A DNA stretch of 64,000 bases from Microbotryomycetes sp. JL201 (lineage: Eukaryota > Basidiomycota > Microbotryomycetes). Of the stretch, positions 19,399 through 58,657 are shown piece after piece. The first letter of the stretch is position 1, and every line of letters starts with the position of its first letter. Both the position numbers and the translations under genes were made by a program. Below the pieces are notes generated by a model. The model worked only from the letters and a program-made list of their open reading frames with translations, was not told the origin of the DNA and ran no database searches. Location: assembly GCA_033819885.1 (NCBI GenBank), contig JAQYUZ010000002.1, positions 186,001 to 250,000 of the forward strand. The letters are read 5' to 3'.

Positions 19399-20574
19399 AT
19401 GCCGGCAAGACGGACCCTTGTCAACATCTACGGCAGTCCAGTTGGACACTCGCTGTCGCCTGTAATCTGCAATCACGTGTTTGACGCGATGTGAGCCTCT
19501 TGAGGCGGCCATTGAACGACGGGCAACGTTCCTGATGGGCTTGCGCTGGTTATGCAGGGGTCTTCTCGATCATCATTATGGTGCAGTCGAGTGCCCTACC
19601 TTGTTGACCGACACCAATGCGTGGACCCGGGATCTGCTTTCCGACGGCCTGCTCGGCACATGCTTGACCATGCCACTCAAAGTCCAAGCAATGTCGCTCA
19701 TCCCTCACGAGTTTTTGGCCGACCATCACGCCAAGGTCATCAATTCTGTCAACACGACTTGGCAACACGAGCACTCTGGGCAATTCAAAGCTACGAACCT
19801 TGATTGGAAGAGTGTGCTTAATTGTTTGGTCACTGCTTTGACAAAGGAACAATCTCCCTTTCCGCCAAGCTTGCCCTTGCTTTTCGAGCAAAACAGAGCC
19901 GTAGGCTTTGTGATTGGAGCGGGGGGCGCGGCACGGGCAGCCATTTACGCCTTGCAAGAGATGGGAGCTGGTTCGGTACTGATCGTCAATAGAGATCAGG
20001 AAGAAATTGACGTCCTAGTCAAAGAGTGGAGCGGCACCATCCTAATCAAATCCATCGCATCATCCGAAAGTCTACAAAAGGAGTTGGCGCAACTGGCCGA
20101 CATTGGGCAGACGGTCGTGGCGGCTGTTGCCTGCATACCTTCAGAGTATGCGCCAGTGACGCTGGAAGAGAAACGAGTGTTTGAGCTCGCAAAGCAAGTC
20201 TTTGCGTTCAAGAAGGACCTAAACGCCGTGTCCCTGTCGTCCGAGTTTCTGCCGATTCCGGATCGACCGATTCTCTTGGACATGGCTTACAAGGTGATCG
20301 GATGTCTGTGACTCAACACAAAAGTCACTGACGCCCTTCTTGTCAGCCACCGATGACGCCGATGCGAGCGCTGGCGGAGTCTCACGGCTGGGAAACCGTC
20401 TGCGGGGCACAGGCAGTGTTGGTAAGTCGCAAACATTCACTCCACTTGGACAAATTTTAATATGCGCGCCGCTTGCAGGAGGTATGCTTCGAGCAGTGCG
20501 AACTTTGGCTCGGGGAGGTAGTTCCGAAGCACGTCCGTGACAGTGCTAGACGCATGATTGATTCGCAGCTATAA
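19399..20574 (+). CDS. quinate/shikimate dehydrogenase
   Basis: Exons 19399-19490, 19558-20293, 20347-20421 and 20479-20574 give 332 residues. The N-terminal substrate domain has YGSPVGHSLSP (shikimate-binding Ser pair) and CLTMPLK with the catalytic lysine, then VNTTW and a DW motif where the catalytic Asp is expected. The C-terminal Rossmann domain has VIGAGGAARAAIYAL and ends with MAYKPP, as in the family. Being single-domain and next to ring-cleavage genes, it is more likely a catabolic quinate/shikimate dehydrogenase than part of the AROM pentafunctional protein; that is inference. It starts 104 nt after the dioxygenase stop, and a CACGTG box lies in that gap at 19343-19348. This may be a co-regulated neighbour rather than an operon. 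Confidence 0.9.
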
Positions 20575-30221: not shown

Positions 30222-31773
30222 ATGCCACACTTGTCTGCAGACGCTTGTGCCAAGATTGAGACAATCCTTGCCGACTTTGCTCGAGACAGGCCAGGAGGTG
30301 AGGGCAGCTTCGCGCGACTGATACAGGAGACGAACAGGCGCTGGAACAAAGCCATCTGACAGTCCTACATGATCATAGCTTCTCTCTCTTTTGCGAGCAT
30401 CGACAGTCCTGCGCAAGCATGGTTCGCTGGCAGAAAGGACGCGCTCGAGCCAGAATCGCCCGGCAACAAGCTCGACGAAAATGTCATCATGTGGTTCGCA
30501 TCAACGACAAAACTGTTGACTGGCGTCAGTTTTATGTGCTGACGCGAAGGTTTTGCAAAGACATTGTTGACCAAATCACAAACAGATCGCCGCCTTGCAA
30601 TTGATTGAGCAAGGTGTCATCAACTTTGATACTACGCTGTCACAATACTTTCCTCAATTCAAAACACCGTTCAAGATCATCACAGATATTGCTGAAGACG
30701 GCACACCAGTGTTTGGCGAATCAAAAGTTGAAATCACGGTTGATACGCTGTTGAACCAGACGAGCGGGTTCGGACGCGAATTTGGGCCGACTGTGCAGGC
30801 TTGGAAGCAATGGTCAGACATTGGCAAAGGTTTCGTCAACAGTTGCAAGAAGGTGAGCTTGCTCCAGACTGGTCCAAGTCTCACCCTGATAAGCCGCATT
30901 ACCCGCCCAGGACAACATTTTCCACACGCCCGCTGTCCGTGAAGCAGGTAAAGTCTGGGAATACGGCAACGGATCAGAGTGAGTCGCTCTCATAGCTCCA
31001 GCTGGTCTCGAATGGCTCACTCGCCTGGTGCTCGCAGATGGCTCGGCCTTTTATTGCAAGAAGCCACCGGCCAAGACCTCGACGGCATTTTGCGCACACA
31101 GATATTCGAACCCTTGGGCATGTCAAACTCTGGTTTTTATCCGTTTGACAAGCCCGAACAAGCCGACCGACTTATGCCTCTACGCTTCTTGCGAGAAGAG
31201 CCTGGCACAGATCGCAAACCAGCTATGACAACAGTTGAAGTGCTGACAGACCAGTTGCCCTTGTTGACGCTGCCCCGCAAGCGGTCCGAGATCGAGTACC
31301 CTGTCGGCGGTGGCGGCATCTATTCGACGACCGTCGACTATCTCAAACTGCTACATCACCTCTTGCTGCATTACTTGAAAGTGCCTGTCACTCCCTCAAC
31401 ATCAGCTACGACCCGTCCTTGCATTTTGTCGGAACGTAAACACTTGGAGTCACTATTCAAAGGGACTTTGCCACCAGCCGCTCTCGAATCAATGCACGAA
31501 ATGGTCGGTCAAAGATTCGGCTCACAAAAACCAGGTGATGTTGATTGGTCAACTGCACTTGGAATTTGGAATGGTTCAGGACCCTCGAGAGGGTTCGGTC
31601 GACAGCCTGGTTCTGCAGGATGGGCAGGAGCAGGAGGTACAGAGTATTGGATCGATCCTAGCTCGGGTATCGCTGTCGTCATTTCCACAAATGCTCTGCC
31701 ACCGTTCGCAGATTGCATCAACACACTCAAAGCGGATCTCGAGCGCACAGTGTATGAATGTTTGATAGACTGA
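30222..31773 (+). CDS. class-C beta-lactamase/transesterase-fold serine hydrolase
   Basis: Exons 30222-30297, 30379-30524, 30586-30852, 30911-30978 and 31038-31773 give 430 residues. The SxxK nucleophile motif is Ser67-Thr-Thr-Lys70 (FASTTKLLTG), and the second-box Tyr-x-Asn is Tyr181-Gly-Asn183 (WEYGNGSEWLG). Between them runs LIEQGVINFDTTLSQYFP, a typical family stretch. A C-terminal Gly-rich segment (GWAGAGGTEYWIDP) sits where the third box (K/HxG) is expected. Fungal members are esterases or transesterases such as those making or cleaving polyketide esters; nothing here points to antibiotic resistance. No signal peptide is evident, so it is probably cytosolic. Substrate unknown. Confidence 0.9.
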
Positions 31774-55812: not shown

Positions 55813-56678
55813 CTACTCTTTCGCCGTGTTCGGAGTCGCCTTGTACAGCTTCCACCTCCTCACTTCCTGCTTGCCCTCGGTAGCTTGCTTAAATTCGGCT
55901 GTCTCGACGTAAGACTCGTCCTCGAATTCTGCGGCGGGCAAATAAGTTGGCACTCGTCAGCTGGGTGAATTAGCGTACTACTATTGTCGGTTATTCTTTA
56001 CCGTGAACAGCCACAAACTTCGGCGCGCCATTTTGGACTGGCTCTCGCTTATAACCAGTCTTTAGCGAGTCGTAAATTCTGTGCCTTGACGATCGCTTCC
56101 ATCCGGGAACATTGTTGAATACCTCGAGCTGGCCGTCGCCTTGCTTCAGTTCCTCGTCCGAGGCGATCGTCAACACAAACTTTGCAGCCTCATCGGCACT
56201 CAGTGGCGCTCCCGTCTCGTCAATCATTTCGGCCGTGCGCCTGTCGAGCGTCTCGAGCCTGACGACGAGTTCTCCTTCGCGTGGAGACCTGTTTGCGCGC
56301 AAACGCGTGTACTTTGGATCAGAGAACAAGTCGGTTGATTCGATATCGTACTTGGCGCTCCAGCCTGGCAGCTGATCGTCCGATGCCTGGTATCGTGCGC
56401 CCGTCAAAAATTCGCGGATACTGTTGCGTTGTTATATTTCAGCGTCTGAACAGTTCGGCGCGTTTGACTCCGATTGCACGAGCAACTGACTTTCCCATAC
56501 GCAGCGGCACATGCTCATTGTCGTACCAGTCTACAAAGAAGGACGGGTTAAGTGTCAGTCGCAGAAACGGCATGCCGTGCTGTATCGAGTGCTTTCTTGC
56601 GTGCTGACCTTGAAACTCTTCGACAGTTGCTGACTGTCCTGGCTCGCTCAGGACCCACAAGTATCCACGGGGTGACAT
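55813..56678 (-). CDS. EthD-like/dimeric alpha-beta-barrel protein
   Basis: Exons 55813-55928, 56002-56420, 56491-56530 and 56609-56678 give 214 residues. Splicing yields two ferredoxin-like half-barrels: LWVLSEPG, EEFQDWYDNEHVPLRMGN and FLTGARYQASD, then SLKTGYKREP and FVAVHEFED. The DWYDNEHVP motif marks the EthD/dimeric alpha-beta-barrel superfamily, which includes enzymes and chaperones of aromatic, polyketide and ether degradation. No catalytic residue can be assigned. It is divergent from the decarboxylase-lactonase fusion, sharing 176 nt of upstream DNA. That arrangement suggests a common metabolic role, which is inference. Confidence 0.87.
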
Positions 56679-56854
56679 TACTTTGCAATCGTCGGCGATG
56701 GCAGGCTGGGCGGAGGTGGCAACTATGGATAAAGCGAAGTGGACAAGCGAGCGGCTTGTACCGGTTTGACGGCTGCGAACTTTGGGCTTTGAGCTGCGCG
56801 CGTGCCGCGGCACGGTTTCGCTCATCTTGCTTCGAGCGCAAGCATCTGAACAGC
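56679..56854. promoter_or_regulatory. short divergent region between the EthD-like gene and the CMD-lactonase fusion
   Basis: 176 nt between the EthD start codon and the proposed split start of the fusion gene. It must include both promoters and the 5' UTR of the fusion. A short frame opening at an ATG near 56694 ends quickly and is not joined in frame to the fusion. Confidence 0.5.
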
Positions 56855-58657
56855 ATGTGAGTTTGTGCATTCGACTCGACGTCGCAATTATTGGTCACAT
56901 CGCAAAGACAAACCTCACTGCGACTTGTGTTGCCCCCACTTTGGCGCAACTCGGCCACTGACACGGTCAAATCATCCTTGCCAACAACGAACATAGGCCT
57001 CGCATCCCTCAACAGAACCCAGCAGCAGGTACTTCGGCAATCGGAGACGCCATCAGAGCCCGTCGCGGCGCACGTGGCCTGACACCGCTCGACCAGACAT
57101 TGCTCAACGCTCCAGAGATCGCCGTCAGTCTGATCAGTTCGTTCAGTTCAGCGACAAGTCTCCTTTGACACTCATGACTACAGAATGGATGGAATACGCT
57201 GCTCGGCGCAATTCGCAATCGCAACAGCTTGCCCGACGACATTCGAGAACTCATGGTGCGTTCCTGTTCGGTGCAATCTGCGCCACCGCATCATATTGAA
57301 CAGGAATCGTCCGGTGTCTGTTCGGCATTAGATCTTGCGCGTCGCCGCCCGCAATTCTGCCACGTTTGAATGGATCCGTCAGTATTTGCCTTCTCTCGCC
57401 ACAGCTCGGGCCCCCGGACGTGACTGACGTCGAGTGTTCATGACGTAGACCATGCGCACGTCGGCACAGACGCTGGCTTGACCAACAAGCAGCTCACCGT
57501 CGTGCGAGACTTGCACACGCCGCTGCCGACCGTGACCTCGCCAGGAGTCCTATCGGCTTATCAAGCAGCAGCGCTCAGATTTGCAGACGCCTCGACGTTC
57601 TCGGTCAACGTGCCTCAGCAACGCATTGACGAGCTCAAGCAGTTCCTCAAAGACGACCAGCAACTGCTCGAAGCGACTGCCGTCGTCGCCACTTACAACA
57701 TGGTTTCGCGCCTGCTCGTCACGCTTGACGTCGGCGACATGGGAGACGTTTCAGTGCCGCTGCCTGAAACGACTCAGGAAGAGCACACTGTCGAGATGGA
57801 GAGCGGCGTATCGCTGCACGTACGAACCGCAAAGCGAGACGATGCAGCACCATGGATCGTGTTTGTCAACTCGCTCATGACGAACCAAAAAATGTGGGAC
57901 TCTGTGTTGCCGAGATTGTCAAAGTCGTACAATCTGTTGACTTTTGACCAAAGAGGTCATGGCAAGGTGAGCGTACAAGTCATGTGCCCTTCTGCTCAGC
58001 GTCTGAACCGCCCCGACTTTTTCGCAGTCGTCTGTGCCCCAAGAAAAGTGCACCTTGCAAGTTTTGGCGTCAGACATTGCCACGATACTCAACAAGCTCT
58101 CGATTCCAACACCGATCCGGGCCATCATTGGCGTGTCTCAGGGCGGAGCCACTTCGCTCGCGTTCGCTCAAGGTCACTCGCCGTTATTTGAGCGATTGAT
58201 TGCGTGCGACACCCAGGCGACCGGGCCTCAAGCCAACATCAAAGCATGGGACGACAGGATCGCCATGGCTCGCGAAAAGGGAATGGCGGCTTTGGCCGAC
58301 GTGACCGTTCCGAGGTGGTTCCCAGCAGGAAGCGAATTTAACCCAGGTGGTAGGCGAGAAGCGTTCGTACACGATATGGTGTCGTCTACCGACATTGAAG
58401 GTTTCGCAAAGTCAGCTGCGGCGCTTCAAGGTTACGACGTCGCGCCTGGTTTGGCAGACAAGTTGCAAGGCAAGAAGGTTTTGCTCATCGCTGGAGAACG
58501 TGATGGAGCTCTACCGGGTGTACTCAAAGGTGTCAGTGAGGACTTGTCAAAGGCTGGCGTAGATGTCAGATTTGAAGTGATTCCTGGTGCTGGTCACTTG
58601 CCGATGCTCGACGGTGCCCAGGCTTGGCTTGACGTCGTGGAGCCATTTCTTGCATAG
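56855..58657 (+). CDS. carboxymuconolactone-decarboxylase-like/3-oxoadipate enol-lactonase-like fusion protein
   Basis: Exons (56855-56856), 56997-57123, 57184-57255, 57332-57377, 57449-57966 and 58028-58657 give 464 residues. Residues 1 to about 175 are a CMD/AhpD-like domain: IRARRGARGLTPLDQTLLN, NGWNTLLGAIRNRNSLPDD, ILRVAARNSATFEWIHHAHV. Residues 185-464 are an alpha/beta hydrolase: MTNQKMWDSVLPRL, FDQRGHGKSS, nucleophile elbow GVSQGG, acid near GERDGAL, base in GAGHLPML, as in 3-oxoadipate enol-lactone hydrolases (PcaD-like). The best start joins AT of 56855-56856 to G56997 across a 140-nt GTGAGT...ATAG intron, giving MPRIPQQNPAAG, typical of this CMD group. Without splicing the same ATG is followed at once by TGA. 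A different upstream exon cannot be excluded. Confidence 0.87.

Follow-up and report, generated by a model that had tools for sequence, protein, structure and literature searches.

A fungal gene joining a CMD-superfamily domain to an enol-lactonase-like hydrolase, with a divergent EthD-like neighbour

A gene of Microbotryomycetes sp. JL201 encodes a single protein in which an N-terminal domain of the CMD/AhpD superfamily is followed by an enol-lactonase-like alpha/beta hydrolase, and the new element here is an EthD-like gene that stands back to back with it, 176 bp apart. The fusion is confirmed at the level of the sequence. With a probability of roughly 0.55, it is a bifunctional lactone decarboxylase/hydrolase that yields 3-oxoadipate in fungal aromatic catabolism, with the EthD-like protein as its partner, and it is probably used for the breakdown of plant aromatic compounds. 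The window referred to below is the whole stretch of DNA that was analyzed, 64,000 nucleotides of contig JAQYUZ010000002.1. Its introns and the neighbors of the fusion gene (Pex2/12, pinin, RNA polymerase I Rpa2, D-Tyr-tRNA deacylase, and an ArAE_2_N transporter) appear to be of fungal type. Elsewhere in the window, an ORF at 30952-31770 (+ strand) matches the Beta-lactamase family PF00144 with 68.1 bits and resembles a serine beta-lactamase-like hydrolase, and another at 19466-20308 (+ strand) has a weak shikimate/quinate dehydrogenase match of 25.1 bits, barely above the cut-off of 24.3.

Structure of the fusion gene

56855..58657, + strand: fusion gene, six exons, 464 aa, 49.9 kDa (rebuilt gene model, Pfam)
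56855-56856, 56997-57123, 57184-57255, 57332-57377, 57449-57966, 58028-58657 (stop included), + strand: exons of the fusion gene
57449..57966, + strand: exon 5, aa 83-255, carrying the domain junction in one open stretch
56997..57735, + strand: N-terminal CMD/AhpD-superfamily domain, ~aa 1-178, over exons 2-5 (PF02627, conserved residues)
57808..58657, + strand: C-terminal alpha/beta hydrolase, ~aa 203-464 (PF00561, pcaD model, 2XUA)

The five introns, of 140, 60, 76, 71, and 61 nt, are all of the GT...AG type, and the splicing was assigned by sequence and homology only. The earlier note on this DNA had placed introns at 57377/57449 and 57966/58028 and had given the end coordinate of the gene, all of which are correct in the rebuilt gene model, and the motifs that it had read (TFEWIHHAHV, GVSQGG, and GAGHLPML) are all found in the 464-aa protein. 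Its central claim of a CMD-superfamily domain and an enol-lactonase-like hydrolase in one frame, with the hydrolase second, is borne out by the Pfam matches and by the junction in exon 5. The domain junction falls inside one exon because exon 5 codes for aa 83-255; the 518 bases of this exon are stop-free in the coding frame, with four stops in each other frame of the + strand, and 0.14% of its shuffles (n=5000) were open in the coding frame. The two homologous regions of the protein meet within ~25 residues in a single frame.

Within 56855-56996, the start codon is apparently split AT/G by the 140-nt intron, giving an unusual two-base first coding exon, and this is the least certain join of the model. 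The next methionine after it is Met67, with none before, and the N-terminus MPRIP can be aligned with the beginnings of bacterial proteins, MARLP and MTRMP among them.

The N-terminal domain

A domain search of the 464-residue protein places its N-terminal part within the CMD superfamily, as had been claimed, with a match to CMD (PF02627) at aa 40-100 of 28.7 bits against the Pfam cut-off of 23. The domain retains 24 of the 25 positions that are invariant in 16 bacterial relatives, including Arg64, Glu65, Glu80, and His84. No cysteine is present in aa 1-182, and an AhpD-type thiol peroxidase was rejected for this domain since the active-site cysteines are absent; cysteines are present in some of its bacterial relatives in the alignment. 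The best NCBIfam matches of the domain are to the YciW-related NF053654 (31.5 bits over aa 1-175, far from its cut-off of 310) and the peroxidase-related TIGR01926 (16.4 bits, far under its cut-off of 81.8), and no PcaC model is found among the NCBIfam matches of the fusion protein up to E 0.1.

A quick CMD tree was built with 34 N-like rows (28 of 80 genome loci and six plasmid rows) and eight PcaC-type rows, which were picked by their NF051487 match rather than by annotation and include one PcaL half and one CMD-first half. The PcaC-type rows form a clade of their own (SH-aLRT 99), and the window's N domain lies outside it with no supported closest group; one row, L115_CMD, is a wrong-frame sequence whose placement is meaningless. 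PcaC membership of the N domain was rejected on the lack of a PcaC model match and on this position in the tree. To our knowledge, no decarboxylase has been described in the branch to which the domain belongs.

A PDB sequence search with the N domain gave nothing significant (best 2ouw, E 0.15). The AlphaFold2 model of an Amycolatopsis relative (pLDDT 93.7) matches PA0269 (2ijc) with a TMt of 0.85 and 33% identity, with 2prr, the CMD-family protein 3lvy, and, lower down, 2q0t, a putative gamma-CMD subunit (E 0.05), among its further matches; most of the structures related to this bacterial homologue bear AhpD or peroxidase-related names. Identity of the N domain to four Amycolatopsis proteins is 45-51%. 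When bacterial and archaeal genomes were scanned with the N-domain alignment, at least 575 of 598 candidate stretches were confirmed, and the best 80 of these N-like loci, 52 of them at least 10 kb long, were retained for neighborhood counts.

The C-terminal hydrolase

The C-terminal half matches Abhydrolase_1 (PF00561) at aa 217-451 with 65.3 bits (Pfam cut-off 25.8) and the pcaD model TIGR02427 at aa 205-463 with 159.7 bits, not reaching the cut-off of 255.85. Its best PDB match is 2XUA, annotated as a 3-oxoadipate enol-lactonase (E 7e-33), and a proposed triad of Ser292, Asp414, and His445 is present by motif assignment only. The fusion had been said to hold the same two activities as PcaL, and this is not supported, given the N domain without PcaC match or placement and a pcaD score under its cut-off.

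The hydrolase groups with unnamed hydrolases of Massilia, Paracoccus, and Roseomonas, apart from the PcaD-type rows (100/99), and its closest plasmid relatives among the matches listed are those of Massilia putida (38%), Roseomonas, and Paracoccus. The gene for the Massilia relative shares 4 bases with a CMD-family gene downstream of it, and the Paracoccus stretch also contains a CMD-family gene; in the tree, both of these CMDs fall into a different branch from the window's N domain. The two Roseomonas stretches hold no annotated CMD gene. The Roseomonas and Paracoccus neighborhoods are not a standard beta-ketoadipate set, although Paracoccus does carry pcaF. At E 1e-4, the locus DNA of the 80 N-like loci (at least 10 kb in 52 of them) yielded no homologue of the hydrolase half.

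The divergent EthD-like gene and its bacterial relatives

55813..56678, - strand: EthD/DUF4286-like gene, exons 56678-56609, 56530-56491, 56420-56002, 55928-55813; 214 aa, 24.6 kDa
56679..56854, no strand: intergenic stretch of 176 bp between the divergent start codons, candidate shared promoter (position only)

Five bacterial proteins, of which four come from Amycolatopsis and one from Nonomuraea, share 36-39% identity with the fungal EthD-like protein, and the stretches around WYDNEH and RSPRE are conserved. Searches with the fungal protein found no Pfam family up to E 0.1 and no matching PDB sequence (best E 0.99); the EthD name is based on an Amycolatopsis relative that narrowly missed the cut-off of TIGR02118 (30.3 bits, cut-off 30.5), and the DUF4286 label on the annotations of plasmid relatives. 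For a bacterial relative, the structure model reached a moderate pLDDT of 65.8, and its fold matches, with a bacterial chalcone isomerase first and EthD (2ftr) and chlorite dismutase also present, have TM-scores of at most 0.50 among the 50 matches listed; they support a predicted dimeric alpha+beta barrel, not a function.

Four Amycolatopsis genomes, selected by their N-like locus and then searched genome-wide, each have a single EthD-like match at E 0.001, and in all four it is separated by 2.4-2.5 kb from the best match of the N domain. Across the eight genomes selected for N-like loci, an EthD-like match was found in five and none in three. The gene order in one Amycolatopsis locus (L014) is DctA-like, CMD, SDR, lactonase-like amidohydrolase, regulator-like ORF (opposite strand), and EthD-like, where the identity of DctA comes from the scan in L012 and the regulator was judged by eye.

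The Nonomuraea EthD-like gene is located away from the best N-like locus of that genome (L016), on another contig, beside another CMD gene whose product is 31% identical to the window's N domain over 150 aa (E 1.6e-12). This stretch also contains a PcaR/PcaU-family regulator (425.8 bits, cut-off 284.75), a pcaI-family gene (230.9, cut-off 128.5), a pcaJ-family gene (329.3, cut-off 243.55), a thiolase whose best matches are 3-oxoadipyl-CoA thiolase models (451.6, missing the cut-off of 605), a lactonase-like amidohydrolase (228.4 with the 4-sulfomuconolactone hydrolase model, missing the cut-off of 500), and, by similarity, a DctA-like ORF. The pcaI/pcaJ-family and PcaF-like genes make a 3-oxoacid, for instance 3-oxoadipate, the probable end product there.

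In eight of the 80 N-like loci, the fungal EthD-like protein has a direct match at E up to 0.05. The motif WYxxEH occurs in an ORF in 28 of the 80 (WYxxEHxP in 26), with 0.1 expected from shuffled ORFs; a gene of the lactonase-like amidohydrolase cluster is present in 32, and the two occur together in 21. The representative of that cluster scores 228.5 bits with the 4-sulfomuconolactone hydrolase model, under the cut-off of 500. SDR-like genes were counted in 48 and TctC-like genes in 34 of the 80 loci, the names SDR, TctC, and DctA being those of scanned or annotated cluster members and not of every member. A recurrent bacterial cluster (L012-L091) is thus made up of CMD, SDR-like, TctC-like, and lactonase-like amidohydrolase genes and the EthD-like motif; we know of no name or pathway for it.

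Among plasmids, 12 records match the EthD-like protein, the lowest E (3e-5) being that of a Massilia gene located directly upstream of the best plasmid match of the hydrolase half. Contexts were examined for six of the 12 records, with an annotated CMD nearby in Massilia and Paraburkholderia. The Paraburkholderia order is hydrolase, EthD-like, symporter, CMD, SDR, and amidohydrolase; its hydrolase is only 25% identical to that of the window and clusters with another hydrolase from Massilia, and the similarity of its CMD to the window's N domain is weak (E 0.002). Around the EthD-like homologues of Phyllobacterium, Pantoea, Agrobacterium, and Mariluticola, no CMD gene is annotated within ~5 kb.

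Proposed function

In the reading that we favor, the CMD-superfamily domain would remove the carboxyl group of a carboxymuconolactone (3-carboxymuconolactone being the most likely one in fungi) and so produce 3-oxoadipate enol-lactone. The hydrolase would open the ring of this intermediate with Ser292, Asp414, and His445, giving 3-oxoadipate, and the intermediate may be passed on within the same chain. The EthD-like protein could act as a partner on that lactone, perhaps as an isomerase or a binding protein. The fusion would then be a counterpart of ChdA of Aspergillus niger in which another kind of domain, of CMD type, carries out the first step. The product 3-oxoadipate, which the earlier note had also suggested, appears plausible for an enol-lactonase-like hydrolase joined to a CMD-superfamily domain.

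This reading is favored by the presence of both domains with intact conserved residues and by 2XUA as the best PDB match of the hydrolase. Bacterial neighborhoods point the same way: the Nonomuraea EthD-like homologue has as its neighbors a CMD gene, pcaI/pcaJ-family genes, a PcaF-like thiolase, a PcaR/PcaU-type regulator, and an amidohydrolase, and the amidohydrolase cluster and the WYxxEH ORF recur among the N-like loci (32 and 28 of 80). In the available parts of the literature, the Rhodosporidium toruloides protein 12620 (pcaCD) is placed under protocatechuate degradation near pcaB and pcaH (PMC7873862), the size of 49.9 kDa may be compared with the 54 (+/-5) kDa of the classical A. niger enzyme, and the hydrolase of ChdA is likewise C-terminal (PMC10406623).

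Several observations count against it. The N domain is not PcaC, and with relatives mostly named AhpD or peroxidase-related, decarboxylation by this branch is something that we infer; the hydrolase lies outside the PcaD-type rows, its relatives in Roseomonas and Paracoccus have no standard beta-ketoadipate set around them, and at E 1e-4 it has no homologue in the locus DNA of the 80 N-like loci. No dioxygenase or cyclase family was matched with Pfam among the 26 distinct ORFs and gene models of the window that were scanned, out of 71 long ORFs. In the available excerpts of PMC10406623, moreover, the part of ChdA proposed as the decarboxylase is of a kind other than CMD, growth does not depend on the CMD-like NRRL3_08340, and the AhpD-like NRRL3_00837 left the reaction unaffected in vitro.

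That the fusion and its EthD-like neighbor act on a different lactone, and not on a carboxymuconolactone of the protocatechuate branch, is possible but on balance not likely; a pyrone, a substituted muconolactone, or a hydroxyquinol-derived lactone would be examples. The closest bacterial CMD relatives sit with SDR-like, TctC-like, and lactonase-like amidohydrolase genes, no pca dioxygenase was noticed among the most frequent neighbor clusters listed, and the separation of the hydrolase from the PcaD-type rows fits this possibility as well. The pcaI/pcaJ-family and PcaF-like genes of the Nonomuraea cluster speak against it, as does the appearance of R. toruloides 12620 in a protocatechuate list (PMC7873862, available part).

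It is improbable that the hydrolase half is the sole enzyme and the CMD-like half structural, regulatory, or unrelated in role. Such a division would suit the structural neighbors of the bacterial relative, which are largely named AhpD or peroxidase-related, and a CMD branch in which we know of no decarboxylase; it agrees poorly with the 24 of 25 invariant residues kept and with the lack of cysteine in aa 1-182 for an AhpD-type thiol chemistry.

Origin of the fusion

Acquisition of a bacterial PcaCD-type fusion gene as a whole by the fungus is very unlikely, even though bacterial CMD-first fusions exist (NF051487 and the Nonomuraea ORF of L105 described below) and the identity of the N domain to actinobacterial proteins reaches 51%. 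The window protein aligns with NF051487 over aa 187-464 only, leaving its N domain unaligned with the PcaC half of that model. No match over both halves was found in plasmids or in strict searches of 396 and 399 genomes: no plasmid record covers 80% of the fusion, the best 30 of 487 records all matching the hydrolase half; 396 genomes of one phylum gave 0 matches at E 1e-40; and 399 genomes of one order gave one match at E 1e-32, to the hydrolase half only. Since both genome searches had strict limits, with at most four candidates scored per genome listed, absence from them is weak evidence. The closest relatives found for the N domain and the EthD-like neighbor are in actinobacteria, those of the hydrolase are in proteobacteria, and in the Amycolatopsis genomes hydrolase relatives are located elsewhere than the CMD; these split affinities and separate locations therefore argue against the uptake of a ready-made bacterial fusion. 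The last alternative, a gene model that wrongly merges two separate fungal genes, may be set aside, for although its split start codon is unusual, a two-gene artefact was rejected on the junction within exon 5, open in frame over its 518 bases, where the homologous regions adjoin.

Wider significance

A broader proposal, which we put forward tentatively and consider rather doubtful, is that CMD, an EthD-like protein, and a lactonase form a module for carboxymuconolactone common to fungi and bacteria, in which the EthD-like protein would be an unrecognized lactone isomerase and any of several unrelated lactonases could be used. If this were true, the fusion would serve as a "Rosetta stone" for the fungal question of the separate AhpD-like protein (NRRL3_00837/AN5232), which A. 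niger and A. nidulans require for the use of protocatechuate or benzoate according to the available excerpts of PMC10406623. In the window, a domain of AhpD/CMD type is covalently linked to the lactonase and divergent from the EthD-like gene, whose bacterial homologues are often neighbors of CMD and lactonase-like genes. The natural fusion of such a domain to a lactonase allows a direct test of its role in the lactone step, and the pairing of CMD with an EthD-like protein offers a new candidate for the machinery of lactone steps, fungal as well as bacterial, which is useful in lignin valorisation.

Comparison with known systems

Bacterial PcaCD (NF051487) likewise has the CMD first and the hydrolase second, and the window protein scores 125.6 bits with it against a cut-off of 430, over the hydrolase half only. 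Bacterial PcaDC/PcaL (NF051488; L109 of Rhodococcus opacus) holds the same two superfamilies in one chain, with the hydrolase first and a PcaC-type CMD second, whereas the window's N domain lies outside the PcaC rows; the score here is 143.7 bits against a cut-off of 390, again over the hydrolase half only and with the order reversed. In the Nonomuraea stretch L105, a 392-codon ORF at 844-2019 encodes a PcaC-like CMD followed by an alpha/beta hydrolase (156.8 of 430 bits with NF051487). The reversed order had been taken to set the fusion apart, but the bifunc_PcaCD model NF051487 and this ORF make the CMD-first order not unusual. The best families of the N domain are those of the YciW-/peroxidase-related CMD branch (NF053654, TIGR01926), of which both cut-offs (310 and 81.8) were missed.

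A full-text search of a limited literature collection returned no title or abstract describing this fusion, and no fused protein is named in the available parts of PMC8283699, PMC12388069, and PMC8896014. For fungi, the available excerpts of PMC10406623 describe the conversion of 3-carboxymuconolactone to beta-ketoadipate in one step by a single bifunctional enzyme, which was of 54 (+/-5) kDa in older work on A. niger, and term the knowledge of the pathway incomplete, with an essential AhpD-like protein left without a role. This protein, NRRL3_00837/AN5232 (~26 kDa), is essential for protocatechuate use and had no effect in vitro, whereas the CMD-like NRRL3_08340 of A. niger is dispensable for growth (PMC10406623). 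Compared by description only, NRRL3_00837/AN5232 is AhpD-like (IPR029032) and of the same superfamily as the window's N domain, but it is a separate protein with no sign of a hydrolase half in those excerpts.

The 3-carboxymuconolactone hydrolase/decarboxylase ChdA of A. niger (NRRL3_01409, 61 kDa) is reported in the same excerpts to have a C-terminal hydrolase and a proposed N-terminal decarboxylase of previously uncharacterized structure, IPR003497 (PMC10406623). Like the window protein, it would thus unite both parts in one fungal chain in the same order, and by description only it differs in its N half (IPR003497 instead of CMD) and in its size (61 against 49.9 kDa). In R. toruloides, 12620 is given in the available Table 2 of PMC7873862 as a CMD-family protein with pcaCD as its best hit in Pseudomonas putida, in a protocatechuate degradation list that also includes the nearly numbered 12622 (pcaB) and 12623 (pcaH), and judging from this annotation it probably has the same architecture as the window protein. 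The fusion had been described as departing from the textbook fungal route, a view not supported in light of the one-enzyme step documented for A. niger ChdA and the pcaCD annotation of 12620; on the available parts of PMC10406623 and PMC7873862, a single-enzyme fungal route is documented, and a CMD and a hydrolase in one yeast protein are probably already on record.
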